Shown: in pieces, positions 6,980-46,315 of the stretch | Layout: every line of letters starts with the position of its first letter | How positions within the stretch are numbered: the first letter of the stretch is position 1 | Assembly (NCBI RefSeq): GCF_014651495.1 | Contig: NZ_BMWZ01000004.1 | Span: 186,001 to 250,000, forward strand | Reading direction: 5' to 3' | DNA: 64,000 bases | Source: Algibacter mikhailovii | GTDB taxonomy: Bacteria > Bacteroidota > Bacteroidia > Flavobacteriales > Flavobacteriaceae | Position numbers and translations under genes: made by a program | The notes under the pieces: model-generated | The model's database searches: none | The model's input: the letters and a program-made list of their open reading frames with translations, nothing else | Told to the model about the DNA's origin: nothing

Positions 6980-8050
6980 TTAATCAAGTAGCTTTTTCCA
7001 TGCTTTAGATATATTATCCATTGAAAATTGCCCCACACTTTCTACTGCATTTTTTTTACAAAACTCATATAGCGGCTTATTTTTGATAAAAGTATCAAAA
7101 GCATTTGCTAACTCAGTAGGACTATTGTTTTCTACTAACAACCCGTTGTGCTCATGTTCAATAATCTCTTTTGGACCAGATTTACAATTAACAGAAACTA
7201 CAGGAGTTCCTAATGACAGAGATTCTATCAAAACCAGTGGAAATCCTTCATGCCTACTTGTTAAAGTTGTAAAGCGTGCTTTTTTAACAAAAGGAAATGG
7301 GTTTTTGATATATGATTTATGGATTACGTAGTTTTCAAGTTCCAGTTCCCTTATTTTAAAATTTAAAAAATCGACATCCTTCCCATCGCCTATAATGTAT
7401 AACTTTATATTACTATTTGACAACGACGATATTTTATAGGCTTGTAGCAATAATGTGAAGTTTTTTACCCTTTCTTCAATGCGTCCATAACACAAAATGT
7501 ATTCTCCTTCTACTTCAATTTCCTCATTAGCTTTTGCTGTTATACTCGCTAATTCTATGGGATTGTATATATGAATACAATTTTTAAAACCATATGTACT
7601 AACCACAGCATTTTGTATTTCTTTACTAACAGCTAGAATATTTGCGTTTTTAAAATACAATACCCTTGCAAGACATTTTGAATTAGGGAGATACGTTTTC
7701 AAATAATAACTGTGTATTATAGATATAATATTTTTAGCCTTGAACACATAATAGTAAAGCAAGAACTCTTTAAAAAATTCACTTCTGGGTCGGTTATCAA
7801 TAATGAAATTAAAATTATGTTTTTTAAAATATGCTCTTAAAATTTTAGTTTTGTTAAAAATAGAAACACGTCCTTCTAGCTTTTCTTCTAAATTAAATAA
7901 TGCCCCAGAAAATTCATAATCTATAATATTTTTTGTGGAAACTATTTTTACATTATATCCAAGATTAGAAAGCATTTGAGAGAGTAATCCACTAAATCGT
8001 TGTGCTCCTCCTTCACCTAAAGATGTTGTTATTATGCAGACTTTCTTCAT
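6980..8050 (-). CDS. Family 4 glycosyltransferase
   Basis: 356 residues, GT-B fold. The N-terminus has the glycine-rich acceptor loop (TSLGEGGAQRF). The C-terminal half carries the GT4 signature region SRHEGFPLVLIESLSLGTPVV with the E-x7-E pair that binds the sugar nucleotide, followed by GPKEII. YILCYGRIEERVKNF marks the start of the nucleotide-binding domain. It is cytoplasmic and uses retaining chemistry by family. It is the last gene of the minus-strand glycan run, 74 bp after the polyprenyl-phosphate-type GT2. Confidence 0.87.
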   Translation of the reverse strand: MKKVCIITTSLGEGGAQRFSGLLSQMLSNLGYNVKIVSTKNIIDYEFSGALFNLEEKLEGRVSIFNKTKILRAYFKKHNFNFIIDNRPRSEFFKEFLLYYYVFKAKNIISIIHSYYLKTYLPNSKCLARVLYFKNANILAVSKEIQNAVVSTYGFKNCIHIYNPIELASITAKANEEIEVEGEYILCYGRIEERVKNFTLLLQAYKISSLSNSNIKLYIIGDGKDVDFLNFKIRELELENYVIHKSYIKNPFPFVKKARFTTLTSRHEGFPLVLIESLSLGTPVVSVNCKSGPKEIIEHEHNGLLVENNSPTELANAFDTFIKNKPLYEFCKKNAVESVGQFSMDNISKAWKKLLD

Positions 8051-28701: not shown

Positions 28702-29574
28702 TTACTTCACCAATATTTTTCTATTTAAAACACCCCCTTCTTGTGATTCAATTTTCAAAAGGTATAGGCCTTTTGCAAAATCACGAACATGTATTGACTG
28801 TGTATCGTTGCTTTCATATACCACCTTACCTACGATATCATAGAGTACAACATTTTTAAATGTAACATTGTTACTAAGTTTCTTGATGTTTAATACATCA
28901 CTTACAGGGTTTGGATAAACACTTAAACCACTAGCCAAAACGTTATCCTGAGAAGATAATGTAGTTTTTGTAGTCCAACTTAACTGAGCCATAGCAATAT
29001 TTGGCTTATCACCTGCACAATCACCAGTAGTACAAACCGCTTCTATATCCAAACTAAAGGCTCCATCAATATCAAGATTATTAACAGTAAAATCTGCATA
29101 CCCTAAAGTATTATCTCCTGCATCACCTGTTCCTTGAGAAGTTTTTCCTGGACTTGTTCCAACATCTTCACCATTAACAAAAATTTTAACACTTCTAAGG
29201 ACAGTACTTGATGTTCCCCAAAAAGCAGCAGTATGGACCGTTATACTAGTAACCCCTCCAGGTAAGTCAGTAGCCTTAAGAAGAAAAGTACGTACTGGCT
29301 CATCATTCTCTACTTCTCCAGCTCTACCACGTATCGATCCAGGCATAGGATTTCCTCCTTCATTTCTTCTTCCTGGAATTTCAAGATAGCCATTTAAGAA
29401 ATAATCATATCCAGTAACACCACTTGTATAAGGAAAATCCTTACTTGACCAACCATCTACATATGGTACGCCAAAGTTGTTTTTAAAATCAGTAAATGTT
29501 TCTGTTACTGTAGTTTGCGCTTGTGCTAAACTTATAGTTAACATCAAAGCACATAATAATGTAATTTTTTTCAT
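28702..29574 (-). CDS. Secreted T9SS cargo protein of unknown function in the polysaccharide locus
   Basis: 290 residues: signal peptide (LLCALMLTISLAQAQ), then an all-beta domain of about 190 residues (ETFTDFKNNFGVPYVDGWSS, GYLEIPGRRNEGG, GVTSITVHTAAFWGTSST, SVKIFVNGEDVG), and a type A T9SS domain (SVYPNPVSDVLNIKKL...GLYLLKIESQEGG). The two Cys at about 195-200 (CTTGDC) could form a disulfide. No enzyme family is recognised; a carbohydrate-binding domain is the simplest guess. The C-rich tandem operator lies 75-99 bp upstream, so it is likely induced with SusC and GH88. Confidence 0.75.
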   Translation of the reverse strand: MKKITLLCALMLTISLAQAQTTVTETFTDFKNNFGVPYVDGWSSKDFPYTSGVTGYDYFLNGYLEIPGRRNEGGNPMPGSIRGRAGEVENDEPVRTFLLKATDLPGGVTSITVHTAAFWGTSSTVLRSVKIFVNGEDVGTSPGKTSQGTGDAGDNTLGYADFTVNNLDIDGAFSLDIEAVCTTGDCAGDKPNIAMAQLSWTTKTTLSSQDNVLASGLSVYPNPVSDVLNIKKLSNNVTFKNVVLYDIVGKVVYESNDTQSIHVRDFAKGLYLLKIESQEGGVLNRKILVK

Positions 29575-29648
29575 AATGTTTTTAGTTATTAGTTTTTAAT
29601 AAATTATTTATCGAGGATAAAATTAGAAGATATTGACCTGATTTAAGA

Positions 29649-29673
29649 GGGGGGGTTTGCTTCTTTTAGAGGG
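29649..29673 (-). promoter_or_regulatory. Candidate regulator operator (C-rich tandem half-sites) before the T9SS cargo gene
   Basis: A run of seven G (29649-29655) and a shorter GGG (29671-29673) start exactly 22 bp apart; in gene orientation these are CCC then CCCCCCC. It is the weakest of three copies: the distal half-site is reduced. A TAATTTTA possible -7 box lies at 29618-29625. Confidence 0.5.
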
Positions 29674-30381
29674 TGTATTTGTTTTTACCACATTAAAAAA
29701 CAATTAGTTAACAACAAAAGACACGTGTTCATTTATTTTAACCAAAACAGACTGTTTTTAATGCATTCTCTATTAAAAGTTTATGATTGAAACCATGAAG
29801 ATGTGAAAGGTGTATGCATAATTAATACTTCAATTTCAAATTTTTAAGGCTCAGATAAAAAAAGAACAAACACATGTTTGAATTCTTATTTAGCTAAAAA
29901 GACTTTTTAATAGCATTACAAGACATTCATCATTAATCATTTTAGATATGCACAGCTATTATGTTTATGACTATGAGTAATAAGAAAAATAACGGAGGAA
30001 TTAAGGACTCGTTTTTCAAAATATTTGTTGGTCTTATAAATAGCAGAATTACCGATCTGTAAAGATTCTTACTGGAGTCATTGACTGCGGTAAGCCCTTG
30101 AAGTAAAAAGTAGGTTGAATGCTCTTTTTATTTTATTATGTGCTCTACCTACGGCTCCTTACAGAATAGAACACCTCTAAACAATCAATTTTCAGGAAAA
30201 CTTCTAGTAAATATTTAATGTCTTGATCATGAGATATTGCTTTTTTAAGGAAACAAAAATGCCGGTAACATAAATATTCCATTTTAATGATTAAAATAAA
30301 AACGCTTCCGGCACATAGTTTAAACTATCTAACCCACAATATCAAGATTTAAAATAACAGGTAAATATTAGTTTGGTAATT
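29674..30381. other. 708-bp intergenic region, no established gene
   Basis: Between the operator and the beta-helix/GH88 unit. The plus strand holds a 33-codon frame at 29961-30062 with uncertain meaning. TGCCGG (30260-30265) and CCGGCA (30308-30313) form a wide inverted repeat that may be the tail hairpin of the GH88 operon, since it sits 69 bp past the stop at 30382. Otherwise AT-rich, nothing recognised. Confidence 0.4.
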
Positions 30382-31944
30382 TCAATTTTTGCAATAATTA
30401 TTTGTAATCATCCATTTTGGTAATTTACCCCCTAATCTCAATTTCAATTGTTCCTCAAACAATGATTCAGGTTTTACCTTAGTTCCTAAACCTTCCAATA
30501 TTTGTATTTCGTTTTCTTTAAAAGTAGTATCAGATCCATGAAAACCGACAACAATTGGTGGCACTATTCTCCACCACCAAGTGTCAGTCGCTACAAATTT
30601 AAAATTAGACTCAGGTTCATCAATTTCTTTAAAGTTCCACAATACTAAATACCTTCCATGGTTAGGTAAATTAAACCGGGCACCTCCTGCTCTGCCTGCA
30701 AAGAAACCTCCTTCTACATTATCAAAAAGGGTGCATCTAGGTTGAGATGCATGCGCCTCGAAAGAGGTGTGTGATGGATATTTCGATCTCCAAATTACAG
30801 TGCCTGTATTACTTCCTCCTCCTACACCAACAGCATGATGCATCCCACTCAAATCATTAATTTTTGCTAATAAAATACCTGTTGACCCTTCAGAATGAAC
30901 AGAGCTATGCCCTATGTTACCTTCAATAGTTATGTTTAAGGCAGTACAAGCAGCCGATTTACTAAAAGAAAATGCATTATTGATATTTTTAAATGTGCAA
31001 TCCTTAACCCAAGAATTAACACTTTTTGAAACACATAATATACTCCATCCACCATCGTGTTTTGCTGATTTATGATGCTCAAATTCTTCTTTCCAATTCC
31101 CTTCAAAAGTTAAATTCTCAAAACCAATTTCTTCAACATGTTCAAAACTTAAAATTTCCCAATGATGTTTTGCCTTAACATCGTAGTGTATAGGTTCATA
31201 AAACGTAATTACGTTATTATTTACTGAGGCTACTTGATGACGCTCATTCACAATGACACCTTCTTCTAGAATTGAGGTCCATTCTGGCTCGGCCTTTAAA
31301 GGTTGAATATCATAAGATATTAAATCTGAGTCATTATTAGATACTGATAAAATGACCCAATCATTCTTATTTATTTTGCTCGCATCAGATAGGGTAACCG
31401 TGAAAGTTTCTCTCTTAGCATCAGAAATGACATCTGCCAATTTTACACTATTACCATTTGCCTTAACTACAATCATATTTGGAGTTGTCCAAAGTTTGTC
31501 AGGTTCTGTTGGCTCAAGGTTATTTTCAAAAAACAAAATAGACTCCCCTTGCTCCTCTCCCCTAAAAACGATATTTGATGCATCAATCTCTATGGGTTTA
31601 TGATCATCGTCTTTTGTAAACAAATGATAGGTTCCTTTGGGAAAGAACACAATACCACTACCTTTTTTTTTCGCAGCTTTTATGGCATTTAACACGGCTC
31701 TTTTATCTGATTTATTATCATTGGGAATAGCTCCATAATCTAAAACATTAAATACCTCATGACCCTTTGTAGGTAAAGCCGTTTCACTGTATTTATATCC
31801 AGCATATGAAAAATCGGGTAAAATGGCCTCAATCCCTGTTTCTTTTGCCGTTTTAAAATCTTCCCAAACGCTCTTTTCTTGAGAAACAATAGGTATATAA
31901 TATAGACATACTATCGCTAGAAGCAAATTTTTAAAAATCATCAT
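30382..31944 (-). CDS. Secreted pectate-lyase-3/DUF4955-like beta-helix protein
   Basis: 520 residues with a signal peptide. After a short N-terminal region (ILPDFSYAGYKYSE) comes the pectate_lyase_3-type opening FNVLDYGAIPNDNKSDKRAVLNAI, then GIVFFPKGTYHLF. A parallel beta-helix follows (EIGFENLTFEGNWKEEFEHHK, VNSWVKDCTFKNINNAFSFSKS, ALNITIEGNIGHSS). The N-terminal motif and length are like DUF4955 proteins. There is no T9SS domain. It starts 6 bp after the GH88 stop, so it is translated from the same message. Catalytic role unproven; conserved H/K/R-rich helix turns are compatible with a lyase or hydrolase. Confidence 0.75.
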   Translation of the reverse strand: MMIFKNLLLAIVCLYYIPIVSQEKSVWEDFKTAKETGIEAILPDFSYAGYKYSETALPTKGHEVFNVLDYGAIPNDNKSDKRAVLNAIKAAKKKGSGIVFFPKGTYHLFTKDDDHKPIEIDASNIVFRGEEQGESILFFENNLEPTEPDKLWTTPNMIVVKANGNSVKLADVISDAKRETFTVTLSDASKINKNDWVILSVSNNDSDLISYDIQPLKAEPEWTSILEEGVIVNERHQVASVNNNVITFYEPIHYDVKAKHHWEILSFEHVEEIGFENLTFEGNWKEEFEHHKSAKHDGGWSILCVSKSVNSWVKDCTFKNINNAFSFSKSAACTALNITIEGNIGHSSVHSEGSTGILLAKINDLSGMHHAVGVGGGSNTGTVIWRSKYPSHTSFEAHASQPRCTLFDNVEGGFFAGRAGGARFNLPNHGRYLVLWNFKEIDEPESNFKFVATDTWWWRIVPPIVVGFHGSDTTFKENEIQILEGLGTKVKPESLFEEQLKLRLGGKLPKWMITNNYCKN

Positions 31945-31950
31945 CTTGTT

Positions 31951-33198
31951 TTAAAGATTAAAGTTTTTATATCTTAACAATGCTTCTAAATAATAATAGT
32001 CTGCGTAAATTAAGGGCACATCAATTTCGCTCTGATGAGGTATACTGCCAACGCTATGTTTTAAGACAAAATGATGATTTTCTCCCAGCTTAGCCATATA
32101 CTGAGGGGATGCCAATGAATTCATGGTTTTGTCTACAAATGTTTTATATGTATTATCCGTATATTGGTTTAATTCAATCAATGCAGAAAGCGTAACTGCA
32201 GAGGCTGAAACATCCCTAGGTTCATCAGGTAGATTTGGTGCATTATAGTCCCAATATGGTACTCCATCCTCGGACAAATCTTTATAATTAATGATATAAT
32301 CTGCAATTTTTATTGCTTGATTTAAATATTTTTCATCTCCTGTAAACCTATAGCACACCGTAAACCCATACAAACCCCAAGCTTGACCTCTAGCCCATGA
32401 ACTTTCATTAGCATAACCCTGTGCTGTTTGTTTACTACGAACTTCTCCAGTATTGGGATTATAGTCTACCACATGTACAGAACTATTATCCGCTCTGTAG
32501 TGATTTTTAAGCGTTGTATTAGCATGTTTCTTAGCCATTTCGCTATAGGTGGTATCACCTGTTAATTCACTCGCTTTGAACAATAATTCTAAATTCATCA
32601 TATTATCAATGATTACAGGGTATTGCCAATCGCGTTTAGATTGCCAGCCTTCATCTACATCCCAGCTTTTTATACATCCCACTTTAGAATTGAACCTTTT
32701 AGATAAAGCATCTGCTGCTGTAACAAGCACCTTTGAATAGCCTTCATTATTTGTTAGCCTTAACCCATTGCCATAAGAAGAATTAAAAACAAAACCTAAA
32801 TCATGATTTGAGGTGTATACCTGATGAGCCTCAAATTTAGATTGGAATTTTTCGGCCGCATTTTTCCATTTTTTGTCTTTTGTTGCTTCATATAAATACC
32901 AACATGTCCCTGGAAAAAATCCTTCCGTCCAGTCAAAACCCGGATTTACCCATTTTACTTCATTATGTTCTACAGTCCGAGGTATATTATCTGCGCGCTC
33001 AGCATCCTGAAGTAACAAGGACAATTGACTATTTATAAAGGTTATTTGATCATCAATATTAACCATTTTTGAGTCTCTTTTTTCAACATCAAGTAATTCA
33101 CTTTTTTCACTAATTAATTCATTTTTTTTACTTTTTGATGCACAAGAGTATAATAGGTTAATAAAAACTAATACAAATACCACTTTAATTATTTTCAT
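31951..33198 (-). CDS. GH88 unsaturated uronyl hydrolase lipoprotein
   Basis: 415 residues. Lipobox LLYSC gives lipidated Cys19. The GH88 (alpha/alpha)6 barrel shows D133 in NHDLGFVFNSSYG and D198 in PVIIDNMMNLELL, matching the two catalytic Asp of unsaturated glucuronyl hydrolases. SSWARGQAWGLYGF (about 266-279) and DEPRDVSASAVTLSAL also fit. The family removes the delta-4,5-unsaturated uronic acid left by polysaccharide lyases through vinyl-ether hydration. It is the first gene of an operon with the DUF4955-like helix protein, with the C-rich tandem operator 111-139 bp upstream. This is the main clue that the locus degrades a uronic-acid polymer by way of lyases. Confidence 0.9.
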   Translation of the reverse strand: MKIIKVVFVLVFINLLYSCASKSKKNELISEKSELLDVEKRDSKMVNIDDQITFINSQLSLLLQDAERADNIPRTVEHNEVKWVNPGFDWTEGFFPGTCWYLYEATKDKKWKNAAEKFQSKFEAHQVYTSNHDLGFVFNSSYGNGLRLTNNEGYSKVLVTAADALSKRFNSKVGCIKSWDVDEGWQSKRDWQYPVIIDNMMNLELLFKASELTGDTTYSEMAKKHANTTLKNHYRADNSSVHVVDYNPNTGEVRSKQTAQGYANESSWARGQAWGLYGFTVCYRFTGDEKYLNQAIKIADYIINYKDLSEDGVPYWDYNAPNLPDEPRDVSASAVTLSALIELNQYTDNTYKTFVDKTMNSLASPQYMAKLGENHHFVLKHSVGSIPHQSEIDVPLIYADYYYLEALLRYKNFNL

Positions 33199-33308
33199 AC
33201 TTTAAATTTTTTTGACGTATTGAAATTTCCTATTGAACAGTAATAAAGAAATCTATAAACAGAACATTAATGACTCCTGACAAATTTCAATAATGTAAGA
33301 AAATAAAA

Positions 33309-33337
33309 GGGGGAGCTAAATAAATAATAAGGGGGGG
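33309..33337 (-). promoter_or_regulatory. Candidate regulator operator (C-rich tandem half-sites) before GH88
   Basis: A five-G run (33309-33313) and a seven-G run (33331-33337) start exactly 22 bp apart. In gene orientation the half-sites read TGCCCCCCCTTAT and AGCTCCCCCTTTT. A TTTG (minus, 33281-33284) follows 24 nt past the proximal half-site. The rest of the divergent gap 33199-33723 is AT-rich with no gene. Confidence 0.6.
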
Positions 33338-33723
33338 CATTTTGCCTATTTCAATAGATTTGGGCGTTTTTTTTACAAAAAACATGCTCCAATCATGTAA
33401 ATTGAACTGAACATTACATTAACAATTCGAAGGTTTTTTGATGCTATGAAGAGTAACATAATTTCGTACAACTTAAATTAAGGTCATTATTTCATTAAGA
33501 ATATTATAACGTTGTTTTTGAGTTATTCTAATGCATCCATTGTATCCTACAAATCTTTATCGCAAAAAACTTACAACAGGTTGGTTTTTATAAAGTATTT
33601 CTTTTTTGCTCTAAATTCTTGTAATGAATTCTATTAAATTTTACTATATTTTGGAACTATTCAAAAGTATAAAATTGACGCTCTTCAGCGTTCCAAAAAT
33701 TTTTGTTCACCAAGATTTTAATA

Positions 33724-36700
33724 ATGAAATTTAATTTTTTTATAAGCTTTATCGCCTTTTCTCTGCTGTCCCAAATATTTTATGGTCAAAGCTCAAATAT
33801 TGACATAAAAAATTTAAAATTAAAACACATTTCCTTAGAACAGGGTTTATCTCAAAGTTCAGTGCTTTCTATTTTGCAAGATAAAAATGGCTTTTTATGG
33901 TTTGGAACTAGAGATGGATTGAATAAATATGATGGCCATAATTTTAAAACGTACAAGCATATATCCAATGATTCTACGTCTTTAAGTAATAACTATATAA
34001 AAGCACTCTATGAAGATGATCACGGTAACATGTGGATAGGTACAAGTAATGGCCTAAATCTTTATGTAGAAAGTGAAGATAACTTTCAGCGTTTTATGCA
34101 AACCAATAACATTTCCAACAATGAAATCTCAAATATTATTAAAGATGATTCAGATCATTTATGGGTTGCTACCTACCATCAACTGAAGAGTTTTAGTATT
34201 AAGGAGAAACGAATTATTGATAATCGAGGAATTAAATTAGACACCCCAATTAGGGCCATACTAAAATCTGAAGATGGTAAATTATGGATTAAAACCACCA
34301 CAGCTGTTGGAACATATGATTTCAATAATAAAACCCTAAAAAGACACACACTTAATGCAAAAGGAATAAATGACTTAAACCTTAATATTATTTCATGTTT
34401 GTATGAAGATCGTTCAAAAAATATATGGCTAGGCTATAAAAATGGATTAGCCTTATTAAATAAAGAATCAAACACTTTTGAGGTTTACAGCATTAATAAA
34501 AATCAAAAATCCTCAATTAATGATAACGTAAGAAGTATTCATGAAGATTACCATGGAAATTTATGGATAGGAACTTATAATGGTCTTTATATCCTTAACG
34601 CCAACAAAACATCAATTGAACATTTTCAGCATAATGAAGACAACAATAGTAGTTTAAGTCAAAATTCTGTATTTAAAATTTTCGAAGACAGTAAAGGTGA
34701 TATTTGGATAGGTACTTATGCAGGTGGCATTAATTATTACGATAGAAATTATGATTCGTTTAAATTATTTTCACCGGGAGGTAAAAACACTTTAAACTAT
34801 AAGGTGGTAAGTTCAATTGTTGAAGACGGTAGAGATAATTTATGGATAGGAACGGAAGGTGGTGGATTAAATTATTACAATGATACCACGGGGAATTTTG
34901 AATATTTTATTCATAATCCGAAGAACAAAAACAGTCTAAGTAGTAATAACGTAAAGGCGATTACAAAAGATGTTAAAGGGAATCTCTGGGTTGGAACTTT
35001 TGACGGCGGACTAAATTTTATCAATATTCAAAACAACAAGAAAAATTTTCAGCATTTTAAAAATATTCCAAATGACACCACAAGCATAAGTAATGATAGA
35101 GTTACAGCTCTTTGCGAAGATGACAATAATAATATTTGGTTAGGCACTAGAGGTGGTGGAGTTAATATTATCAATAAAGATTCAAAACGAGTTACCAGAT
35201 TAAAACCCCATTCAAAATATTCAAAAGATTTTGTAAACGTCATTACAAAGTCATTAAATACTAATATTCTATATATTGGAGGTAATGAAGGCTTGTATGA
35301 AATTGATATTTACACACAAAAAATTAACCCTATAAATTTTAGATCAGATGATAATGTGTTTACTAAAACACCAGTAATTAGTATTTATGAAGATAATACT
35401 CAAAATTTATGGATTGGCACTGAAGGCAACGGATTGTATTATTATGATAAAAAAACAAAAATCAGCAGTAATTACGGGATTGCAGAAGGATTACCAAGTG
35501 AAATAATCTACGGCATATTGGCACATGAGAATAACTTATGGCTGAGTACTAATCAGGGCCTAAGTAAATTCGATTTAACAACAAAAAAAGTAAAAAACTT
35601 TGATGCGTCAGATGGTATTCAAGGTAACGAATTTAATTATGGCGCTTATTTAAAAACTAAAAACAACAAACTATTTTTTGGAGGCGCGAATGGGTTAACC
35701 ATTTTTAATCCCGATGATATAACAGGGAATTCATTTATACCTCCAGTTTTAGTCACTGATATTCGGATTAATAATGAATTACATTATCCAAAATACACAA
35801 AAACACTTAAATTAAATCATAAACAGAATGTGTTTAGTTTTAATTTTGTTGCATTAAGTTATTCCAAACCCACGAAAAACCAATACGCTTATAAACTTGA
35901 AGGATTCGATAAAGACTGGATTTACATTGGCAATAGGAGGTCTACAACATATACAAATATTGACCCAGGAAAATACACGTTTAGAGTAAAAGCTTCAAAT
36001 AGTGATGACTTATGGAATGGAAAGGGTGATGAAGTTTTTATAGAAATCTTTCCAGCACCTTGGAAATCATGGTGGGCCTACTTATTGTATATGCTTGTAC
36101 TCTCAGGTATTGCGTTTTTAATAAGAAAATATTATTTACAGAGACTAACTGAAAGAAAAGAGCTTATAAGGGAACGCGAAGAAAAAGAAAAAATCAAAGA
36201 AATAAACGCATTAAAACTTCAATTATTCACCAATATCTCACATGATTTCAGGACGCCTTTAACCCTTATTGTTGCGCCTTTGGAGAAAATGATTGAAGAT
36301 CATAAAAACATAACTTTAGCCTCTATACAGAAACAGCATACAGTTATGCATAGAAATGCCATGATCTTATTACAGCAAATAAATCAATTTTTAGATTTTA
36401 GAAAAAATGAATCCGGACAGTTTAAATTAGAAGCTTCCAAGTCAAATATTATAACTTTTATAGACGATATTAAAAAATCTTTTGACGAATTAGCTGTTGA
36501 AAAAAATATTAATTTCAAACTAAAAACTACAGAAGACAATATAGAAGTCTGGTTTGATAAAATTAAACTTAGAAAAATTATTTACAACCTCTTATCTAAT
36601 GCTTTCAAGAACACACCTAATGATGGTGACATTATTATCAACATTTCAACAACTGAGAAATTTTTTAAGGATGATAAGATTACCGCGGGCGTCAAAATAA

Positions 36701-37842
36701 AAATTTGTGATACAGGTATCGGTATTTCTAAAGAAAACTTAAAGTTTATTTTTGAAAGATTCTACAATCTTGATAAAAAACACGGGGGCTCTTTAGGCAC
36801 TGGAATTGGCTTATCATTAACCAAAAGCCTTGTGTCTTTGCATAAAGGGTATATTGATGTAAAAAGTGAAATTGGAAAGGGCACTTGTTTTACCGTTTTA
36901 CTCCCACTTGGTAATTCCCATTTAAGCAAACAAGAAATTATTAAGAAAGATTCAACCAATACAATGGACTATGGGGTCTATAATAAGCCCTTTGAATTAT
37001 TAGAAAAAAGGGACACTCAAAATGAGGCTAACATAGTTGATTCTGACGAATCTTTGCCAACCATTTTAATTGTTGAAGATAATACTGATGTTAGAGATTT
37101 ATTAAAAAGTATTTTTATTAATAGTTTTAATATCCTTGAAGCAAAAAATGGCAAAGTTGGTCTAGAATTGGCGAATAACCATACTATAGATGTTGTAATA
37201 AGTGATATCATGATGCCATTTATGGATGGCATAGAACTTTGTGAAACTATAAAGACCAACATAAATACGAGTCATATCCCTGTAGTCTTGTTAACTGCAA
37301 AGACTTCCAAAGAATCGGAGAAATCAGGCTATGAGACTGGTGCCGATTTATACATAGCTAAACCATTCAATCCAAATTTATTGTTTACTCAGGTAAATAA
37401 TATTATACTTTCAAGAAAAAGTTTAATTGAAAAATTTAGAAAAGACATTATTATAGAACCAAAGGCTATAGCGGCTACCTCTGCTGACGAATTATTTTTA
37501 GAAAAAGTATTTAATGTAGTTATGGAAAATTTATCTAATCCAGATTTTTCAGTCTACAACCTTGCCGATATGCTAAATATGAGTAGGTCTATACTTTACA
37601 AAAAAATAAAGGCCTTAACTGGACAGTCTATTTATGATTTCATCAAAACAATAAAACTTAAACATGCAGGTCAACTTCTTGTTTCTAGAAAAGATTTAAA
37701 TATTTCCCAAATTGCTTATGAAATTGGTTTTGTAGATTTAAAACACTTTAGGAAATTGTTTAAAAACCTATTCAACGAACTACCTTCAGAATACAGGAAT
37801 AACCCAAAAAACTATGAGGATAAAGAACCAAAAGAAAAATAA
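33724..37842 (+). CDS. Hybrid two-component system sensor/regulator of the locus
   Basis: 1372 residues from the ATG at 33724; the longer frame begins at a TTG and adds seven residues before the signal peptide. Order: signal peptide; two seven-bladed propellers of Reg_prop repeats (many D-x-x-G-x-L/I-W-I/V-G-T); Y_Y_Y domain (about 715-775); membrane helix (WWAYLLYMLVLSGIAFLI, about 785-803); HisKA with phospho-acceptor H840 (NISHDFRTPLT); HATPase; receiver with D1161 (VISDIMMPFMDG); C-terminal AraC HTH. Such proteins bind an oligosaccharide in the periplasm and activate their locus. Divergent from GH88; the tandem C-rich elements are its likely DNA target. Confidence 0.95.
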   Translation: MKFNFFISFIAFSLLSQIFYGQSSNIDIKNLKLKHISLEQGLSQSSVLSILQDKNGFLWFGTRDGLNKYDGHNFKTYKHISNDSTSLSNNYIKALYEDDHGNMWIGTSNGLNLYVESEDNFQRFMQTNNISNNEISNIIKDDSDHLWVATYHQLKSFSIKEKRIIDNRGIKLDTPIRAILKSEDGKLWIKTTTAVGTYDFNNKTLKRHTLNAKGINDLNLNIISCLYEDRSKNIWLGYKNGLALLNKESNTFEVYSINKNQKSSINDNVRSIHEDYHGNLWIGTYNGLYILNANKTSIEHFQHNEDNNSSLSQNSVFKIFEDSKGDIWIGTYAGGINYYDRNYDSFKLFSPGGKNTLNYKVVSSIVEDGRDNLWIGTEGGGLNYYNDTTGNFEYFIHNPKNKNSLSSNNVKAITKDVKGNLWVGTFDGGLNFINIQNNKKNFQHFKNIPNDTTSISNDRVTALCEDDNNNIWLGTRGGGVNIINKDSKRVTRLKPHSKYSKDFVNVITKSLNTNILYIGGNEGLYEIDIYTQKINPINFRSDDNVFTKTPVISIYEDNTQNLWIGTEGNGLYYYDKKTKISSNYGIAEGLPSEIIYGILAHENNLWLSTNQGLSKFDLTTKKVKNFDASDGIQGNEFNYGAYLKTKNNKLFFGGANGLTIFNPDDITGNSFIPPVLVTDIRINNELHYPKYTKTLKLNHKQNVFSFNFVALSYSKPTKNQYAYKLEGFDKDWIYIGNRRSTTYTNIDPGKYTFRVKASNSDDLWNGKGDEVFIEIFPAPWKSWWAYLLYMLVLSGIAFLIRKYYLQRLTERKELIREREEKEKIKEINALKLQLFTNISHDFRTPLTLIVAPLEKMIEDHKNITLASIQKQHTVMHRNAMILLQQINQFLDFRKNESGQFKLEASKSNIITFIDDIKKSFDELAVEKNINFKLKTTEDNIEVWFDKIKLRKIIYNLLSNAFKNTPNDGDIIINISTTEKFFKDDKITAGVKIKICDTGIGISKENLKFIFERFYNLDKKHGGSLGTGIGLSLTKSLVSLHKGYIDVKSEIGKGTCFTVLLPLGNSHLSKQEIIKKDSTNTMDYGVYNKPFELLEKRDTQNEANIVDSDESLPTILIVEDNTDVRDLLKSIFINSFNILEAKNGKVGLELANNHTIDVVISDIMMPFMDGIELCETIKTNINTSHIPVVLLTAKTSKESEKSGYETGADLYIAKPFNPNLLFTQVNNIILSRKSLIEKFRKDIIIEPKAIAATSADELFLEKVFNVVMENLSNPDFSVYNLADMLNMSRSILYKKIKALTGQSIYDFIKTIKLKHAGQLLVSRKDLNISQIAYEIGFVDLKHFRKLFKNLFNELPSEYRNNPKNYEDKEPKEK

Positions 37843-37854
37843 ATGATTAGTAAA

Positions 37855-40800
37855 TTATTCTAGAATTAGCTTATTAATTTTAAACAATTCATGCTTGTCG
37901 TTATTATTAATGACAAGTATATTTTTTCCGGTAGTTGTTTTTATTTGAACCATATCCCTAACGTCCCTATTGGCATAAAAGCCTGTTTTCAAATTTGGTA
38001 CTATATGAAACTTTCCATTGCCTTCGCCGGACATGAATGTTCCAATACCTGCGTCTAACCTTGTAGTCTCAACTTCTGTTTGATAATTATTTCCAGCTAA
38101 TAGTAAATCCCTTGTTCCATCTTGATCAAGATCATCAAAAATAATACTATTTATTGGCGCTACTTGCAATTCGTTAGTAAATGCTGAAAACAAAAACTTC
38201 CCATGTCCCTGATTGACAAAAATCCCAGAGCGAAACTCTGTGACCTTATAATTTAAGGCTGTTTTAATTGCAGGGCCAAGAATCCCTTCCAAATCTCGAC
38301 TAGCAAATTCTTTATATGATTTTATTTTAGCATCAAGCTCAGGTATTTGCTGTGCACTGCAACTTTTCCCTCTTATTGGAACCTGCTTGCCATTATGATA
38401 TTTTGCAAGAAAAACATCCTCGGTTCCATTATTATCAAAGTCACTAGCATAAACTTCAAAAGGATTTTCTATTGTTGCATGAAACTTGGAATTTAACCCT
38501 AAATTTCCAGCAATAATATCTAAATCGCCATCATTATCTATATCCTCAACCAACAATGTATTCCACCACCCTTTGGTTTCATTAAGTGTTTTGTAATCTG
38601 AAGATTTTAACAATTTTCCATTCACGTTTTCAAAGACTTCAATCCCCATCCACTCTCCGGTAACAATTAAATCCAAATCATTATCATGATCAATATCGCT
38701 CCAATTCGCATCTGAAACCATGCCTATATTACCTAAGGATTTAGCTAGTTTATATGTTTCATCAATATATTTTCCGTTTGAATTTGTAAGCAAATAACTA
38801 TTTGGGGCATACGGATATCTTCCAGGAATCACTCTGCCTCCAACAAAAAGATCAATATCACCATCATTATCATAATCTGATGGTTTTACTATAAAACCTG
38901 CCGAATAAAACTTTGGTAGGCAATCTAGACATTTTTTAAAATTGTTCTTTCCATCATTCTTATAAATGCGATCAGCCAAAAATTTAGAAGATTCTTGAAA
39001 CTCATAACTGCCACTTACAACATAAAGATCTAAATCGCCATCATTCTCTAAATCAAAAAACACAGCGCCTACATCTTCGTGTAATTTATCGGCTATGAAA
39101 TCCTTATTTTCAATTGATTCAAAGCCTCCCGATTTTTTTCCTAACAATAGTTTTCCTGGCTGTGAGTAACCCCCACCTAAATATAAATCCTCAATTCCAT
39201 CATTATTAATATCTGCCTTCGCAACACCAGGTCCTAACTGAGAGAACTTGTGCGGCAATAAAACCTGAATATCATAATCATTAAATAAACTATCTATATG
39301 TTTGAAATTGAATGGAATGTCTTGAAATAGTTTAATATTTTTAGAAGTAACGTTATTTTCAGTAGGCCTAATCGCATTTTTATAGTCTACAGTTATCAAT
39401 TGATTCGATTTCAGATTTTGATAATACTGCACTTTACCATCTGGCCAAATAATTTCAACTTTATCAGCAGTTAATTGTTCCCCTAATCCAAAAAACAATT
39501 TGTTAGATACAGAAGACATGTATCCCCTAGAATTCACGAGGTTTCTGGTCTGTTTCTCTTTGTTTTCACCATAAATATTTACAGTTACTCCTATCCCAAA
39601 TGGGTTGTTTTCAGGGCCTTTAAAATTAAAATTTAAAAAATGTTTTTTTTCTCTTTCTACAGTATTATTTCTTAAAATATGTGCCTCTTCGTTTATATTA
39701 TTAACAACAATATCTAAATCCCCATCGTTATCTAAATCAGCAAATACGGCCCCATTAGAAAAGGTTGGTGAAGCATTATGCCAGAGTTCTGAAACATTTG
39801 AAAAGGTTAAATCGCCTTGATTCTTAAAAAAGTAATTACTCAACTTTTGCTGAGGCAGCATTTGTGTATACTCTAAAAACTCCTTTGAACTCGGTTTTCT
39901 CCGTTTTTGCCTGATTAGATTAAGTATGTTTTTATTTGTATCCTTATCAATAACATCTCTAAAAACACCATTAGTTATATAAATATCATTTAAACCATCT
40001 AAATCAAAATCGGCTATTAGCGGCGCCCAGCTCCAGTCTGTATTTGCCATGCCCGCCATATTGGCAATTTCACTAAATGAACCATTACCATTATTTAATT
40101 GTAAGACGTTATGCATATATTGATAATGATACCCTTTATTTACCATGTCAGTAAATTTTGAGATAGAGGTCATCGACATTGTTGTCTTAGACCTGATATA
40201 ATCTTCTGGGTTCATATCTAAATTAACCACATCTAAAAAGCCATCATTATTTATATCGGCAATATCTCCACCCATACTATAAAATGATTGATGTTTAAAC
40301 ATCTCTAATCTCTCATCCCGAAAAGTGCCATCTTTCTTATTTATATAGACAAAATCGGGCATAGCAAAATCATTATTCACATAAACATCTAACCATCCAT
40401 CATTATTTAAATCAGCTATTTGAGCATTTAATCCAAATGCAATGTCTGGTACAATACCTGCTTTTTCTGAGATATTAGTAAAGGTATGGTCGCCATTATT
40501 CTCATAAAAAGAATCGCTCCCACCCCATTTTATGGTCTCATCATCCTTTTTAAAGGTTTTTAAATCTATTAGTTTACTCGCTTTTTTGTTGGTATAGGGG
40601 GCGTTAACAATATATACATCCAAGTCTCCATCTTTATCAAAATCAAAAAAAGTAGATTGAATGCTTCTATTGGCATCAGCTAAACCATAAGATTCTGCCT
40701 TTTCCTCAAAGGTTAAATTACCTTTATTTATAAACAATAAATTGGTACAGTTCTGCTCATTTTTAAACCAACCGGCTCTAGAAATATAAATATCGAGTAA

Positions 40801-41214
40801 ACCGTCGCTATTAATATCTACCACCGTTACGCCTGTATTAAAACCGGACTCCAAATGGATACCTGTTTTATTGGTGACATCCTTAAATTTAAAATCTCCT
40901 AAGTTTAAGTATAGCTTGCATTCTTTTAGGTTTGAGACGAAAAACAAATCTTCTAGGCCATCATTATCAAAATCTGCAGATGCAACACCTGCTCCATTAT
41001 AAGAATATATATATTTATAATAGTAGAATTCTTCGCTTTCTACAATCTCATTTTTAAAACCTACCCCAGTTTCTATTGCTGGTAAAATTTCAAAGCGCAT
41101 ATTTGATCTTTTATTGATTTGTTCTTCTTTACAAGAGAAACTAGTCAGTACCAATAAAAATGCAAAGGTGAAAAATGATGTATTACTAAAAATGCCATTA
41201 AAATAATGAACCAT
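37855..41214 (-). CDS. FG-GAP/VCBS repeat lipoprotein with ASPIC/UnbV domain
   Basis: 1119 residues, lipobox TSFSC (Cys28). Two propeller-like halves carry many D-x-D/N-x-D-G-x-x-D calcium-binding repeats (DFDNDGLEDLFF, DINSDGLLDIYI, DLDNDGDLDIVV). An ASPIC/UnbV segment follows the first half at about 530-600 (NSRGYMSSVSNKLFFGLGEQ, VEIIWPDGKVQYY). Homologues occur beside SusCD pairs in many Bacteroidota loci; a surface glycan-binding role is assumed, not shown. It lies 148 bp after susD on the same strand, with a hairpin between them and no C-rich operator of its own, so it is likely part of the susCD transcript. Confidence 0.88.
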   Translation of the reverse strand: MVHYFNGIFSNTSFFTFAFLLVLTSFSCKEEQINKRSNMRFEILPAIETGVGFKNEIVESEEFYYYKYIYSYNGAGVASADFDNDGLEDLFFVSNLKECKLYLNLGDFKFKDVTNKTGIHLESGFNTGVTVVDINSDGLLDIYISRAGWFKNEQNCTNLLFINKGNLTFEEKAESYGLADANRSIQSTFFDFDKDGDLDVYIVNAPYTNKKASKLIDLKTFKKDDETIKWGGSDSFYENNGDHTFTNISEKAGIVPDIAFGLNAQIADLNNDGWLDVYVNNDFAMPDFVYINKKDGTFRDERLEMFKHQSFYSMGGDIADINNDGFLDVVNLDMNPEDYIRSKTTMSMTSISKFTDMVNKGYHYQYMHNVLQLNNGNGSFSEIANMAGMANTDWSWAPLIADFDLDGLNDIYITNGVFRDVIDKDTNKNILNLIRQKRRKPSSKEFLEYTQMLPQQKLSNYFFKNQGDLTFSNVSELWHNASPTFSNGAVFADLDNDGDLDIVVNNINEEAHILRNNTVEREKKHFLNFNFKGPENNPFGIGVTVNIYGENKEKQTRNLVNSRGYMSSVSNKLFFGLGEQLTADKVEIIWPDGKVQYYQNLKSNQLITVDYKNAIRPTENNVTSKNIKLFQDIPFNFKHIDSLFNDYDIQVLLPHKFSQLGPGVAKADINNDGIEDLYLGGGYSQPGKLLLGKKSGGFESIENKDFIADKLHEDVGAVFFDLENDGDLDLYVVSGSYEFQESSKFLADRIYKNDGKNNFKKCLDCLPKFYSAGFIVKPSDYDNDGDIDLFVGGRVIPGRYPYAPNSYLLTNSNGKYIDETYKLAKSLGNIGMVSDANWSDIDHDNDLDLIVTGEWMGIEVFENVNGKLLKSSDYKTLNETKGWWNTLLVEDIDNDGDLDIIAGNLGLNSKFHATIENPFEVYASDFDNNGTEDVFLAKYHNGKQVPIRGKSCSAQQIPELDAKIKSYKEFASRDLEGILGPAIKTALNYKVTEFRSGIFVNQGHGKFLFSAFTNELQVAPINSIIFDDLDQDGTRDLLLAGNNYQTEVETTRLDAGIGTFMSGEGNGKFHIVPNLKTGFYANRDVRDMVQIKTTTGKNILVINNNDKHELFKINKLILE

Positions 41215-41254
41215 AATTGTTTATGTTTTTTAAATATAAAAATTTAATTAAGCA

Positions 41255-41290
41255 TTTAACCCTACATACCATAAAGCATGCAGGGTTAAA
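41255..41290 (-). promoter_or_regulatory. Hairpin between susD and the FG-GAP gene
   Basis: TTTAACCCT (41255-41263) pairs with AGGGTTAAA (41282-41290), extended inward by CAT/ATG after one mismatch. No T-run follows in the minus direction, so it may tune or stabilise the susCD message rather than end it. Confidence 0.45.
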
Positions 41291-41362
41291 CAAACTAACA
41301 AATTAACTAACAAATAGACTGTTTCTACTAGCAATAATAGTAGTATTTCAAAAAGTCCTAAT

Positions 41363-42892
41363 TTATAGATTCGGGTTTACATCCTTAGCTCCTCTTGGGA
41401 TTGGCGTGAAATATAAATATTCTCCTGAATCAGCAGGCGTTCTATTGTTTACAACATCTACAGGTTCTATGGAAGAACGTCTAACATGATTAGGGTCTGT
41501 AAAGCGTTGCATTCTAACTAAATCATGCCACCTTTCATATTCTCCACAAAGCTCCCATTTCCGTTCTGTATAAGCAAGTTCCTCTATAGGACCATCAGCA
41601 GATGTTAAATCTACCGTCGCCCCAGCTCTACGTCTCACTTCGTTTAGTGCTTTCCACGAATCAGCAGTCACGTTCCCAGAACGACCGGATGCCTCAGCAT
41701 ACATTAACAATACATCTGCATAACGCATAACATAACGGTTTATGTCGGCATTGGTGCTATTCCAAACGGTGGATTCTGAACCGGCTACTTTTCTTAAAAC
41801 AGGATGTGGATCTATCCATTCTCTCCAATCTGAACCATAAGGACCACTTCCTCTTAATATGCGTTCATGAACATAAGTGTCTTCAAAACGTGATTGTGTT
41901 CCATCTGTAATTGCAGCGGCTTCCATATCTTCATAATAGGCAATTTCACCAAAAGTTTCGGTCCAACCGCCTGCTTCAGCAGGTAAACCTAGACGTCCTA
42001 CTGTTCTATTACCTAAGTTATCCATGCACGTTAGGCAGGCTACAAAAGTAAAAACGCCTTCGTCATGAGCAAATCTGCCATCAATAGTCCACATACTTTT
42101 AATACTACTTGCTAATGCATAACCATAATCTCCGTTTACTACTTCACCAGCTTTTTCAGCCGCTAGAGCATATTTACTATTATCATTTATAGGAAAACCA
42201 GCCCAATGCATATACAGTCTGGCTAAGAACGCTTTGGCGGCTCCTTTACTTGGCCTTGTACCAGTTGCAACTATACCTGGGTATGTATCTGGCAATAGTG
42301 CTTCAGCCTTTAATAAATCATTTTCCATTAACGTATAAATCTCATCAAAAGAAGCTTTGGCTGGTTGCTCTACACTACCTAATGTAGTCACAATAGGAAC
42401 TCTACCATAAGTTCTAGTTAAATGCATGTAAGCATATGCTCTTAAAAAATAGGCCTCACCAAGTAGCCTATCAATTTCATCTTTATCACCGTCTACAATA
42501 TTTTCTTGAGCATTAATAGCAACATTGGCATTGGCTATTATTCTATATGACTCGAGATATGCCTTTATCACACGGTCAACACCATCTGTTTGAGTTCTCC
42601 AATCGGAATCTCGAAAATCCTCTTTATTTCCAGAGGTTACACTACTCTCTGTGGTAATATCATCCCCTCCATAAGCGGCAAGGTGAAATTCGGACCATCT
42701 AACTGCGTTAAAGGCAACTCTATAAGTTGCAGCTATAACGCCACGCAACGCCTCAACATTAGTCAATGCCTGCGGTGATAGCTGGGATTGACCAGGATCT
42801 TCCTCTAGGTCTGCACAGGAAAATGAAAATAATGTTATAATCATGCTTAAACAAATAGCACTTTTTATTTTATAATTCTTAAATATCATCAT
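41363..42892 (-). CDS. SusD/RagB-family nutrient-binding lipoprotein
   Basis: 509 residues, lipobox FSFSC (Cys26). SusD features: N-terminal helical TPR-like region with LLGEAYFLRAYAYMHLTRTYGRVPIVT. GTRPSKGAAKAFLARLYMHWAG and RYADVLLMYAEA follow, and the C-terminal RagB end is ERKWELCGEYERWHDLVRM...YLYFTPIPRGAKDVNPNL. It caps the SusC barrel at the cell surface and binds the oligosaccharide to be imported. It starts 10 bp after susC. No separate SusE/F-type glycan-binding gene follows. Confidence 0.93.
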   Translation of the reverse strand: MMIFKNYKIKSAICLSMIITLFSFSCADLEEDPGQSQLSPQALTNVEALRGVIAATYRVAFNAVRWSEFHLAAYGGDDITTESSVTSGNKEDFRDSDWRTQTDGVDRVIKAYLESYRIIANANVAINAQENIVDGDKDEIDRLLGEAYFLRAYAYMHLTRTYGRVPIVTTLGSVEQPAKASFDEIYTLMENDLLKAEALLPDTYPGIVATGTRPSKGAAKAFLARLYMHWAGFPINDNSKYALAAEKAGEVVNGDYGYALASSIKSMWTIDGRFAHDEGVFTFVACLTCMDNLGNRTVGRLGLPAEAGGWTETFGEIAYYEDMEAAAITDGTQSRFEDTYVHERILRGSGPYGSDWREWIDPHPVLRKVAGSESTVWNSTNADINRYVMRYADVLLMYAEASGRSGNVTADSWKALNEVRRRAGATVDLTSADGPIEELAYTERKWELCGEYERWHDLVRMQRFTDPNHVRRSSIEPVDVVNNRTPADSGEYLYFTPIPRGAKDVNPNL

Positions 42893-42902
42893 ATCTATAT
42901 TT

Positions 42903-45854
42903 TTAAAAATTTAAATTTAAACCTAATGTGAATGTCCTAGGGTTAGGAAATGCGCCCTTGTCATAGGAAGGAGCAAGATCAGTACTATTGTTGGTTGAAG
43001 ATACTTCTGGATCATAACCTCGGTAGTCTGTTATCAATACTAAATTTTGACCACTTACATAAACCTTGGCAGATTCAAGAAATTTGATCTCATCAAAAGT
43101 GTAACCTAAAGTCAGGTTGGTTAATCTTATAAAATCTCCCTTCTCTACAAATCTAGAAGATCTTACTCTATCTGTACCCGTTGGTATTTCAGTTTGATTA
43201 TCTGGAGTCCATCTATTTAAATAATCCGGATGTATTGGGTTTTTAACAAGCATTTCAGAATATGTGTCATTATACACATCAAAACCATGTGCTCCGCTAA
43301 ATAAAAGGTTAACATTAAAACCTTTGTAATCAAAGACTTGATTGAATCCCCATGTTAGCGTTGGAAGTCCATTCCCTATAGCACCGAGTATAAACTCACC
43401 GTTCTCATCAGTAGCATATCTTGCCGTACCTGGGGTTTCTCCTTCAGGATTATCTGTTTTCCAAGTCCCTAAAAAGGTACGTCCATAAAACTGACCAGAG
43501 GGCTCACCCTTTTGTAAAACATAAACAGTTTCTCCACTGGCCCCAACAATATTGGCAGGTGAAATTGGAACTTCATCTGGTCCACCTAAATCAACTACTG
43601 TATTCTTTATTGTAGAAAGCACAACATTTGCGTTCCAATAAAAGTCTTTAGAATCCAATAAATCAGCATTTAAAGAAAAATCAAAACCTGTGTTTTCAAT
43701 TTCTCCTAAATTAGTAAACACCCTGCCATCTGGATCCCCTGCTTCTTGGTGTAATTGCTTATCTAACAATAAATCTTCTGAATTCTTGATATACCAATCA
43801 ACAGAAAATGAAACTTTATTTTTTACTAATTTAAAATCTAGACCTACATTGGTTTGTCTAGTAATTTCCCACTTTAAATCTTTATCTACTACACCTCCAT
43901 AGCCTAAACCATTGGTTATTCCAACTCCATCATATGAATAGTGTTGATTAAAGTTATTAGTTAATTGTTCATAGGTACCTAAGAAGGTACCATCATTACC
44001 TACTTTACCCCATCCTGCTCTTAAAACTATATTATTAAGAAATGCATCATCATCATTAAATAAATTTTGCAGGCTATACCTTGCCGATACGGCCGGGGCA
44101 TAAATTGTATTATTTTCTTTCCTAAAGGTAGACGACTGATCTACACGCAATGATCCAGTAATATTAAAGTTTTCGCTCACACCAACTTGTGCACGCCCCA
44201 CATAAGATTGTAAGGTTCGATCATTAATCCCTGCAGACACCCCTGGTGATGTGCCTAATTCTATTTGGTAAAAAGCATCTTTTAATCCTTCTAAAGAATA
44301 GGCTCCAGACCCTCCATTAGCGGTTCGTCTTACGTTCTTTGTTATTTCATAAACACCCGTAAGTATCAAATTAGTTTTCCCAAAATCTTTAGTATAAGTA
44401 AAAATATTACTTAACTGCGTATTTGTTAAAACCGAAGTAATAAAACTAGCTCTTGGTGCTATTACAGATGACCCATCGGGTATAAGGGAATAACGCTCTT
44501 CTCTGGCATTTAATGTATTAGACCCCGCATTAAGCCTATAACTAAATGCCGGTGTAAAATTGTAAGTTAGATTTAAATTTAGTCCTAATCTATCTTGAAT
44601 AGAATTATTATTCTTTTCAGATATGACAGCTATAGGGTTAACCAAAATACTACCAACTGCTTGTGGCTCTATATCATAATAAGTCCCATCAGGATTTCTC
44701 ACTGGAAATGTTGGATTATAAGTAAGTACTGATAAAATTCCGCCTCTGTTATCAGAAGAAGCTCTTGCTCCACCACTAAATAAATTATGTCCTTGAGACC
44801 TTGATCCCGAAATGTTCAGTCCAAGTTTAAATTTTTCACCAAATTTAGTTTCCAAATTAGATCTAAAGGTCAATCTTTCATAATCAGTATTAATTACAAT
44901 TCCTTCTTGATTCACATAATTTCCAGACAAATAATACTTAAGTCTGCCTTCTTGCCCTTTCGCCGACAATTGAATATTATTAACAATAGAAGGTCTAAAA
45001 AATTCATCTTGATAATCTGTACCTCCATCAATAACGGGTCCGGCTGCTGGATATAAATCAGAATATTCTTGTGGTGTCACTTGAGGTAGCTTATTTGGTA
45101 AACTGGCAAATGACGAAAAATAATTCACTTCAATTTTTGGTACACCTTTACCTCTTTTTGTTGTTATTAAAATTACACCATTAGCTCCTCTTGCACCATA
45201 TATGGCAGAAGCTGATGCATCTTTTAAAATATCCATAGATTGTATATCATTAGGGTTAATGGAGTTAATATTACCACCAACAATACCATCAACAACCAAT
45301 AAGGGCTCACTACTTCTAGTTAAAGAACTTGAACCTCTTACCCTTATCTTTATGTTAGCCCCTGGGGCTCCAGATGATTTAATAACCTGAACACCAGAAG
45401 CTCTAGATTGTAAAGCATCTTCTGCTCTAAACACGGGTTGATCTTCAAATGATTTTGAACCTACAGAAGATACCGCCATTGTAACATCTGAGCGTTTTAC
45501 TGTACCGTAACCCACCACAACAACTTCATCTAAACTCTCTGCATCTTCAGTTAGTATAATAACTATTGCATCTCCCGAAGAAACTTCCTTTTCTTGAGTT
45601 TGATACCCCAAATAACTCATCGAGATTTGAGAAGGGCTTTTTTGAAGTGTCATTGAAAAATTACCATCAAAATCTGAAACGGCCCCATTATTCGTTCCTT
45701 TTTCTAGAATATTAACTCCAGCTATTGGAACGCCAGCATCATCTTTAATGACACCTGTAACTTTACTTTGAGCAACACTTATACTACTTAATAACACAAG
45801 TAAACAGAATGGAATAAACCAATTCTTTTTCTCTCTTAGTTTCGTTTTTTTCAT
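42903..45854 (-). CDS. SusC/RagA-family TonB-dependent outer-membrane transporter
   Basis: 983 residues. Signal peptide (ends SISVAQ), carboxypeptidase-D-like regulatory domain (VTGVIKDDAGVPIAGVNIL...FDGNFSM, 31-70), and the plug start DEVVVVGYGTVKR (109-121). The plug has SINPNDIQSMDILKDASASAIYGARGANGVILITTKRG, named here only by its position near 200-235. The barrel ends in FTLGLNLNF. It imports oligosaccharides through the outer membrane, driven by TonB, with SusD as lid. Two seven-C half-sites, 22 bp apart, lie 59-87 bp upstream of the ATG. Confidence 0.95.
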   Translation of the reverse strand: MKKTKLREKKNWFIPFCLLVLLSSISVAQSKVTGVIKDDAGVPIAGVNILEKGTNNGAVSDFDGNFSMTLQKSPSQISMSYLGYQTQEKEVSSGDAIVIILTEDAESLDEVVVVGYGTVKRSDVTMAVSSVGSKSFEDQPVFRAEDALQSRASGVQVIKSSGAPGANIKIRVRGSSSLTRSSEPLLVVDGIVGGNINSINPNDIQSMDILKDASASAIYGARGANGVILITTKRGKGVPKIEVNYFSSFASLPNKLPQVTPQEYSDLYPAAGPVIDGGTDYQDEFFRPSIVNNIQLSAKGQEGRLKYYLSGNYVNQEGIVINTDYERLTFRSNLETKFGEKFKLGLNISGSRSQGHNLFSGGARASSDNRGGILSVLTYNPTFPVRNPDGTYYDIEPQAVGSILVNPIAVISEKNNNSIQDRLGLNLNLTYNFTPAFSYRLNAGSNTLNAREERYSLIPDGSSVIAPRASFITSVLTNTQLSNIFTYTKDFGKTNLILTGVYEITKNVRRTANGGSGAYSLEGLKDAFYQIELGTSPGVSAGINDRTLQSYVGRAQVGVSENFNITGSLRVDQSSTFRKENNTIYAPAVSARYSLQNLFNDDDAFLNNIVLRAGWGKVGNDGTFLGTYEQLTNNFNQHYSYDGVGITNGLGYGGVVDKDLKWEITRQTNVGLDFKLVKNKVSFSVDWYIKNSEDLLLDKQLHQEAGDPDGRVFTNLGEIENTGFDFSLNADLLDSKDFYWNANVVLSTIKNTVVDLGGPDEVPISPANIVGASGETVYVLQKGEPSGQFYGRTFLGTWKTDNPEGETPGTARYATDENGEFILGAIGNGLPTLTWGFNQVFDYKGFNVNLLFSGAHGFDVYNDTYSEMLVKNPIHPDYLNRWTPDNQTEIPTGTDRVRSSRFVEKGDFIRLTNLTLGYTFDEIKFLESAKVYVSGQNLVLITDYRGYDPEVSSTNNSTDLAPSYDKGAFPNPRTFTLGLNLNF

Positions 45855-45912
45855 AAAAATATATTTAGTTTAATTTTGTTAGAGCAAATTTTTAAAATAA
45901 ACTCTAAATACA

Positions 45913-45941
45913 GGGGGGGCTTCTTGTGTCATTAGGGGGGG
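45913..45941 (-). promoter_or_regulatory. Candidate regulator operator (C-rich tandem half-sites) before susC
   Basis: The clearest copy: seven G at 45913-45919 and again at 45935-45941, 22 bp start to start, each followed by C. In gene orientation: TTTGCCCCCCCTAAT and AGAAGCCCCCCCTGT. A TTTG (minus, 45885-45888) lies 24 nt past the proximal half-site, the same distance as at GH88. Confidence 0.65.
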
Positions 45942-46315
45942 CAAATGAATACAATGTAGATATTATGGGGTATAAACAATTATCCGGAGACAAAAAGTCA
46001 ACAGATAATACTTCAAGATAAGGTTATTCAAGAAGGCTGATTATTTAGTCTTTTGAAAATTTTCGGGTAACTAAAAATTAATAAAACCAATCTATTATTG
46101 GAAAAGAAAAAATGTTGTTTTTATAGCTTCATTTCGTGCATTTGTTTCATAAAGTTTTAATTCTCGATACAAAAAGTAATCAATACTGAATATCAGATTC
46201 TTATAAATTTAGGTGCAATTTGAAGTAGTCAACGTTAAATAAAGTGATAAAGTAAACATAATAAGCAAAACAGAATTGTAGTAAATCAACCTCTATTTTT
46301 ATTTTTTAATTGGTC

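Follow-up and report, generated by a model that had tools for sequence, protein, structure and literature searches.

The window analysed here, a 64-kb stretch of DNA with a GC content of 33%, carries a polysaccharide locus in which the gene for a hybrid two-component regulator (HTCS) lies on the plus strand among minus-strand genes. The locus genes are as follows.

42903..45854, minus strand, susC (TIGR04056), putative target
41363..42892, minus strand, susD, downstream in the susC unit
37855..41214, minus strand, FG-GAP/ASPIC-UnbV protein of 1119 aa, directly after susD
33724..37842, plus strand, HTCS; the longest ORF starts at 33703 (TTG)
31951..33198, minus strand, GH88-like unsaturated uronyl hydrolase, putative target
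30382..31944, minus strand, pectate-lyase-like + DUF4955 enzyme, separated by 6 bp from the upstream GH88 gene
28702..29574, minus strand, T9SS cargo protein, putative target

HTCSs control much of the polysaccharide degradation in Bacteroidota, and we know of hardly any HTCS DNA sites outside Bacteroides. The regulator of this locus contains, in a single chain, a propeller sensor and Y_Y_Y, HisKA, HATPase, receiver and AraC-type HTH domains, which is the domain set of an HTCS. Because the DUF4955 enzyme (30382-31944) is nearest to the BT3328 family of hyaluronan endo-lyases (the closest NCBIfam model, although far below its cut-off), the substrate of the locus likely contains uronic acid.

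Three paired C-tract sites were present in the window, all of them upstream of minus-strand genes (susC, GH88 and the T9SS cargo gene). Read towards the gene, the ends of the two C-tracts were exactly 22 bp apart at each site, and the susC ATG was located 58 bp downstream of the proximal tract. The candidate sites, with scores from the weight matrix described below, are as follows.

45913..45941, minus strand, candidate susC operator, GCCCCCCCT-N13-GCCCCCCCT, 22 bp; matrix score 25.4, rank 3 in the window
33309..33337, minus strand, candidate GH88 operator, GCCCCCCCT-N13-GCTCCCCCT, 22 bp; matrix score 28.7, rank 1
29649..29675, minus strand, candidate operator of the T9SS cargo gene, CACCCT-N16-CCCCCCCT type, 22 bp; matrix score 27.9, rank 2
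45967..45970, minus strand, possible third half-site CCCC, weak, at susC, three turns (32 bp) further upstream than the distal half

On the plus strand, these sites appear as G7 at 45913-45919 and G7 at 45935-45941 (susC), G5 at 33309-33313 and G7 at 33331-33337 (GH88), and G7 at 29649-29655 with just GGG at 29671-29673 (T9SS cargo gene). The window has four G/C runs of at least 7 nt, all inside the three sites. The first-pass annotation had described three pairs of G/C runs 22 bp apart; its coordinates were correct on re-reading the sequence and the spacing held at all three sites, but the distal run of the T9SS site is only the GGG, which reads CACCCT in gene orientation and is a degenerate, weak half-site. 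The third CCCC at susC is possibly an accessory half-site.

The pattern CCCCC-N17-CCCCC had four overlapping matches at two places in the window and none in 100 dinucleotide shuffles. Across all 4.44 Mb of the genome, the susC and GH88 sites were the only places with C5 pairs at 20–24 bp, so the pairs are not the random occurrences that the first-pass annotation had named as a possible objection. Whole-genome matches to GCCCCCCCT-N13-GCCCCCCCT were confined to the same two sites even when three mismatches were allowed, the reversed pattern had no match in the whole genome at this tolerance, and an off-period control with a 23-bp period matched in 0 of 299 genomes, this one included. Another off-period pattern likewise gave 0 matches in this genome. 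Looser patterns gave about as many matches in this genome as their reversed background, and only the weight matrix separated the real candidates; in this genome the matrix was applied to the window, to the loci that had been fetched and to places preselected by pattern. After the three sites, the next matrix match in the window scored 17.9 and lay in a coding region. The earlier claim that no such pair precedes the other genes of the locus therefore stood for the window, whereas a strong further site was found elsewhere in the genome (see below).

Among 397 genomes of the family, about 30 HTCS genes formed a block at 45–55% identity, followed by a gap down to 38–39%. Both flanks were fetched for 30 of the block HTCS genes, giving 31 clade loci together with the window. 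The homologous HTCSs were at most 55% identical, and the sampled genomes contained no close orthologs of the whole locus; conservation was therefore tested by motif and not by alignment. In the relatives and the window, 28 of 34 C-run pairs (in gene orientation, within 400 bp of the start) were 18–24 bp apart, with a mode of 22–23 bp (binomial P ~3e-16). When equal flanks were compared, 16 pairs at 18–24 bp were found in the 31 clade loci vs none at 18–26 bp around 20 HTCSs outside the clade. Loci L007-L021, on GTDB contigs outside the clade, contained no such pairs, only scattered GGGG/CCCC matches.

A weight matrix was built from 25 relatives' sites alone. Because these training sites were chosen by their C-runs, the matrix sets no lower limit on the strength of a functional site; it placed the three reported sites at ranks 1–3 in the window. 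In leave-one-genome-out scans, at least one match before a start codon was found in all 31 clade loci, which are homologous and thus not independent, and in 0 of the 20 control HTCS loci. The clade matches numbered 55, counting a few that hit one site again in a shifted register, and the flanks were unequal (about 36 kb for the clade, 1.18 Mb, vs 16 kb for the controls, 0.4 Mb); at the rate of the clade, about 19 matches were expected in the 0.4 Mb of control sequence and none was observed. Scanning 26 whole genomes for CCCCC-N16-18-CCCCCT gave 33 matches, about 15 of which lay within 20 kb of a clade HTCS, a zone that made up 1.1% of the sequence. The pairs are thus kept in related loci, the outcome on which the first-pass proposal had been made to depend.

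In the relatives, sites were located before genes for SusC, GH88, DUF4955 lyase-like enzymes and T9SS-type cargo, one of the last having 29% identity to the cargo protein of the window, best in the sorting domain. Further targets in the relatives, assigned by eye from the sequence, were a SusE-like protein and one protein resembling KduI. A coincidental similarity, or the recent duplication of a single promoter, might be considered for a window that has only three sites, one of them degenerate. This explanation is highly improbable, as the 100 shuffles gave no match, comparison by eye shows that the similarity of the three sites stops at the motif and does not extend into their flanks, and the motif is common to promoters of other genes in about 20 other genomes.

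Across the relatives, the core of the half-site was C4–C7 followed by T, including interrupted tracts such as CCTCC. Of 28 sites, 26 had the T after the proximal tract and 21 had it after the distal tract. GAAC was present in 14 of 56 half-sites, compared with 2.1 in letter-shuffled sequences, and mostly started 14 nt before the tract end. The half-site consensus G-C7-T proposed earlier was right about the C-tract core but too narrow: the relatives have C4–C7 and then T, often with GAAC about 9–10 bp upstream. The half-site thus appears to be bipartite, with a GAAC-like box often present upstream of the C-tract.

In the relatives, the best match to the Bacteroidota promoter element TAnnTTTG started 19–23 nt after the proximal tract, with a mean match of 4.68/6 compared with 3.86 in shuffled sequences (shuffled maximum 4.24). 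The corresponding -7-like elements in the window are as follows.

45885..45892, minus strand, AAAATTTG, susC; starts 20 nt after the proximal C-tract
33281..33288, minus strand, GAAATTTG, GH88; starts 20 nt after the proximal C-tract, the same offset as at susC
29618..29625, minus strand, TAATTTTA, T9SS cargo gene; starts 23 nt after the proximal C-tract

Since the -7-like element lies 19–23 nt downstream, the proximal half-site would cover the -33 region, an arrangement resembling that of class II activation. Class II activators of the AraC family (MarA, SoxS and RhaS type) place the two HTHs of each monomer on adjacent major grooves, with the proximal site by -35/-33. The fold of the DNA-binding domain of the window HTCS matches the MarA, SoxS and AraT domains; the HTCS differs from these activators in being fused to a sensor kinase and in acting, as proposed here, at a TAnnTTTG promoter.

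The G/C runs might instead represent a DNA structure and not a protein site, either a G-quadruplex, for which G7-N15-G7 could in principle give four G3 tracts, or a slippage-prone homopolymer for phase variation, as 7-nt homopolymers can slip. However, the relatives keep the spacing with tracts of four or five C, which are too short, and with interrupted ones (CCTCC), the distance to the -7 element hardly varies, and it is mostly the gene-directed strand that is C-rich. We consider a structural role very unlikely and regard the C-tracts as probable protein-binding sites.

The features of the regulator that bear on this binding are as follows.

37270..37281, plus strand, SHIP motif of the receiver domain, residues 1190-1193
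37735..37752, plus strand, recognition helix of the second HTH, D1345-L-K1347-H-F-R1350 (numbering from 33703), proposed C-tract reader

The signature D-[LMI]-K-x-F-R was present in the recognition helix of the second HTH (HTH2) in all 31 clade HTCSs and in none of the 20 controls, in which this helix was mostly S/N-P-S/K-Y-F-T/S. In the AlphaFold model (pLDDT 90), L1346-R1350 open the HTH2 helix and D1345 stands directly before it as the N-cap. On balance, these data favor the second HTH, through its D-L-K-x-F-R helix, as the reader of the C-tract; its Lys and Arg probably face the guanines opposite the tract.

This genome (denoted G000) encodes another HTCS, G000:C9:142291, with a D-V-K-Y-F-R helix, and diverged C-rich repeats of the GATGAAATACCTCC type precede two units near its gene.

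L330 (G000:C9:131001-151000), near 7374, minus strand, repeat before a GH2-like gene
L330, near 16598, plus strand, repeat before a 476-aa gene

The elements TAGTTTTG and TAACTTTG lie about 22 nt downstream of these repeats. This arrangement suggests that the two regulators share a C-tract reader and differ in the upstream box.

The association of the sites with the HTCS rests on neighbourhood, and the proximal tract lies approximately where a -33 element is expected. It could therefore be argued that the C-tract pair belongs to another regulator of the locus or is an upstream promoter element used by an alternative (ECF) sigma factor, the HTCS being merely a neighbour. Against this, the presence of the pairs tracks the clade of HTCS DNA-binding domains across genera, the standard TAnnTTTG-like -7 element that follows speaks for the primary sigma factor, two AraC domains would fit well on a tandem repeat of 22 bp with a GAAC box, and the D-V-K-x-F-R HTCS of this genome also has C-rich repeats before two units. 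We judge such an arrangement unlikely and retain the HTCS as the predicted binding protein.

Two HTCSs with a D-Y-K helix, one in this genome (G000:C6:207317; L325, G000:C6:196001-216000), with no nearby matrix match above 16, and one in G579 (L315-L318), with a best nearby match of 17.1, had no strong C-tract site close by, indicating that the K and R alone are insufficient. Partly similar helices elsewhere in the class (D-Y-K in G579 and D-L-P in G571) gave no convincing sites, G571 having one match of 20.1. A wider modular code, in which the HTH2 helix (D-[LMIV]-K-x-F-R for a C-tract) sets the promoter-side box of HTCS operators and the HTH1 helix sets the GAAC-like upstream box, can be offered only tentatively. 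The clade-wide correlation and the D-V-K-Y-F-R HTCS with its diverged repeats speak for it, and the D-Y-K variants speak against it. If it were true, the regulons of many uncharacterised Bacteroidota polysaccharide loci would be predictable from about ten residues.

According to Ravcheev and Rodionov (2013; PMC3878776), the predicted operators of Bacteroides HTCSs are direct repeats of two conserved sites, 21 bp on average across 16 predicted motifs, and were interpreted as binding a dimer on one face of the DNA. They lie upstream of the susC and CAZyme units of their own locus and of an occasional distant gene, and the window resembles them in having direct half-sites at about the same period upstream of susC and CAZyme units, conserved in related loci. 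It differs in its C-tract core, its 22–23 bp period and its occurrence in Flavobacteriaceae, a comparison based on the text of that study; a single Bacteroides motif may still resemble this one. SusR-type operators, as given in the same study, are also direct repeats upstream of susC-like genes, but with a period of 67 or 77 bp, which the 22-bp sites of the window do not share.

Fragments of the HTCSs BT4124 and BT4663 bound susCD promoters in mobility-shift assays (PMC11253607). These proteins have a receiver and an AraC-type HTH, and the window HTCS carries the SHIP motif of the receiver that was defined in that work together with the S/CHIP-DK contacts; its HTH region contains D and K, which is a matter of presence and not of position relative to the published residues. 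BT4124 and BT4663 belong to other loci, presumably with another half-site sequence, and binding was demonstrated there, whereas the candidate operator of the window is predicted from sequence. Because Bacteroides HTCS operators are direct repeats of about 21 bp, HTCS fragments bind susCD promoters there and the receiver here has the SHIP motif, we classify the candidate operator as the same kind of element with a different (C-tract) specificity. In the literature searched, which covered few subscription papers, we found no HTCS operator described in Flavobacteriaceae and no published binding data for such C-tract motifs.

Taken together, the three paired C-tracts are very probably activator-binding sites of the HTCS at 33724-37842. 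The first-pass annotation had proposed that they are operators to which the hybrid regulator encoded next to them binds through a dimer of its AraC-type domain, and this proposal is supported by the clade-specific conservation, the non-random occurrence and the fit to the Bacteroides HTCS rule. In the mechanism that we infer, a glycan fragment on the periplasmic propeller would stimulate the kinase, and the receiver domain would become phosphorylated. The AraC-type domains of the HTCS dimer would then be freed to bind the two direct half-sites, which would lie on one face of the DNA as 22 bp corresponds to two helical turns. In each half-site, the weak GAAC-like box may be read by the first HTH and the C-tract by the second; the Lys and Arg of the D-L-K-x-F-R helix in the second HTH probably touch guanines of the opposite strand. 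With the proximal half on the -33 region upstream of the TAnnTTTG -7 element, the bound HTCS would recruit RNA polymerase, acting by activation and not by repression, and switch on susCD, the T9SS cargo gene, and the unit of GH88 and the lyase-like enzyme. A candidate operator and its promoter geometry thus emerge jointly with a candidate recognition helix and a predicted regulon that includes one distant gene.

The distant gene follows a fourth site of this genome, on another contig (G000:C1:340391-340418; matrix score 28.0).

L321 (G000:C1:330001-350000), ~10380-10420, plus strand, fourth site, before a 776-aa DUF4955 lyase-like gene

The encoded protein has 33% identity to the DUF4955 paralog of the window locus. 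A C-tract operator may be a simple means to link orphan enzymes to their locus.

Two further observations concern the surroundings of these sites. CCCC at the same 32-bp offset upstream of the distal half as at susC was also seen in two relatives (G388 and G237). The 776-aa DUF4955 gene adjoins histidine-biosynthesis-like genes and lies outside any recognised polysaccharide locus.
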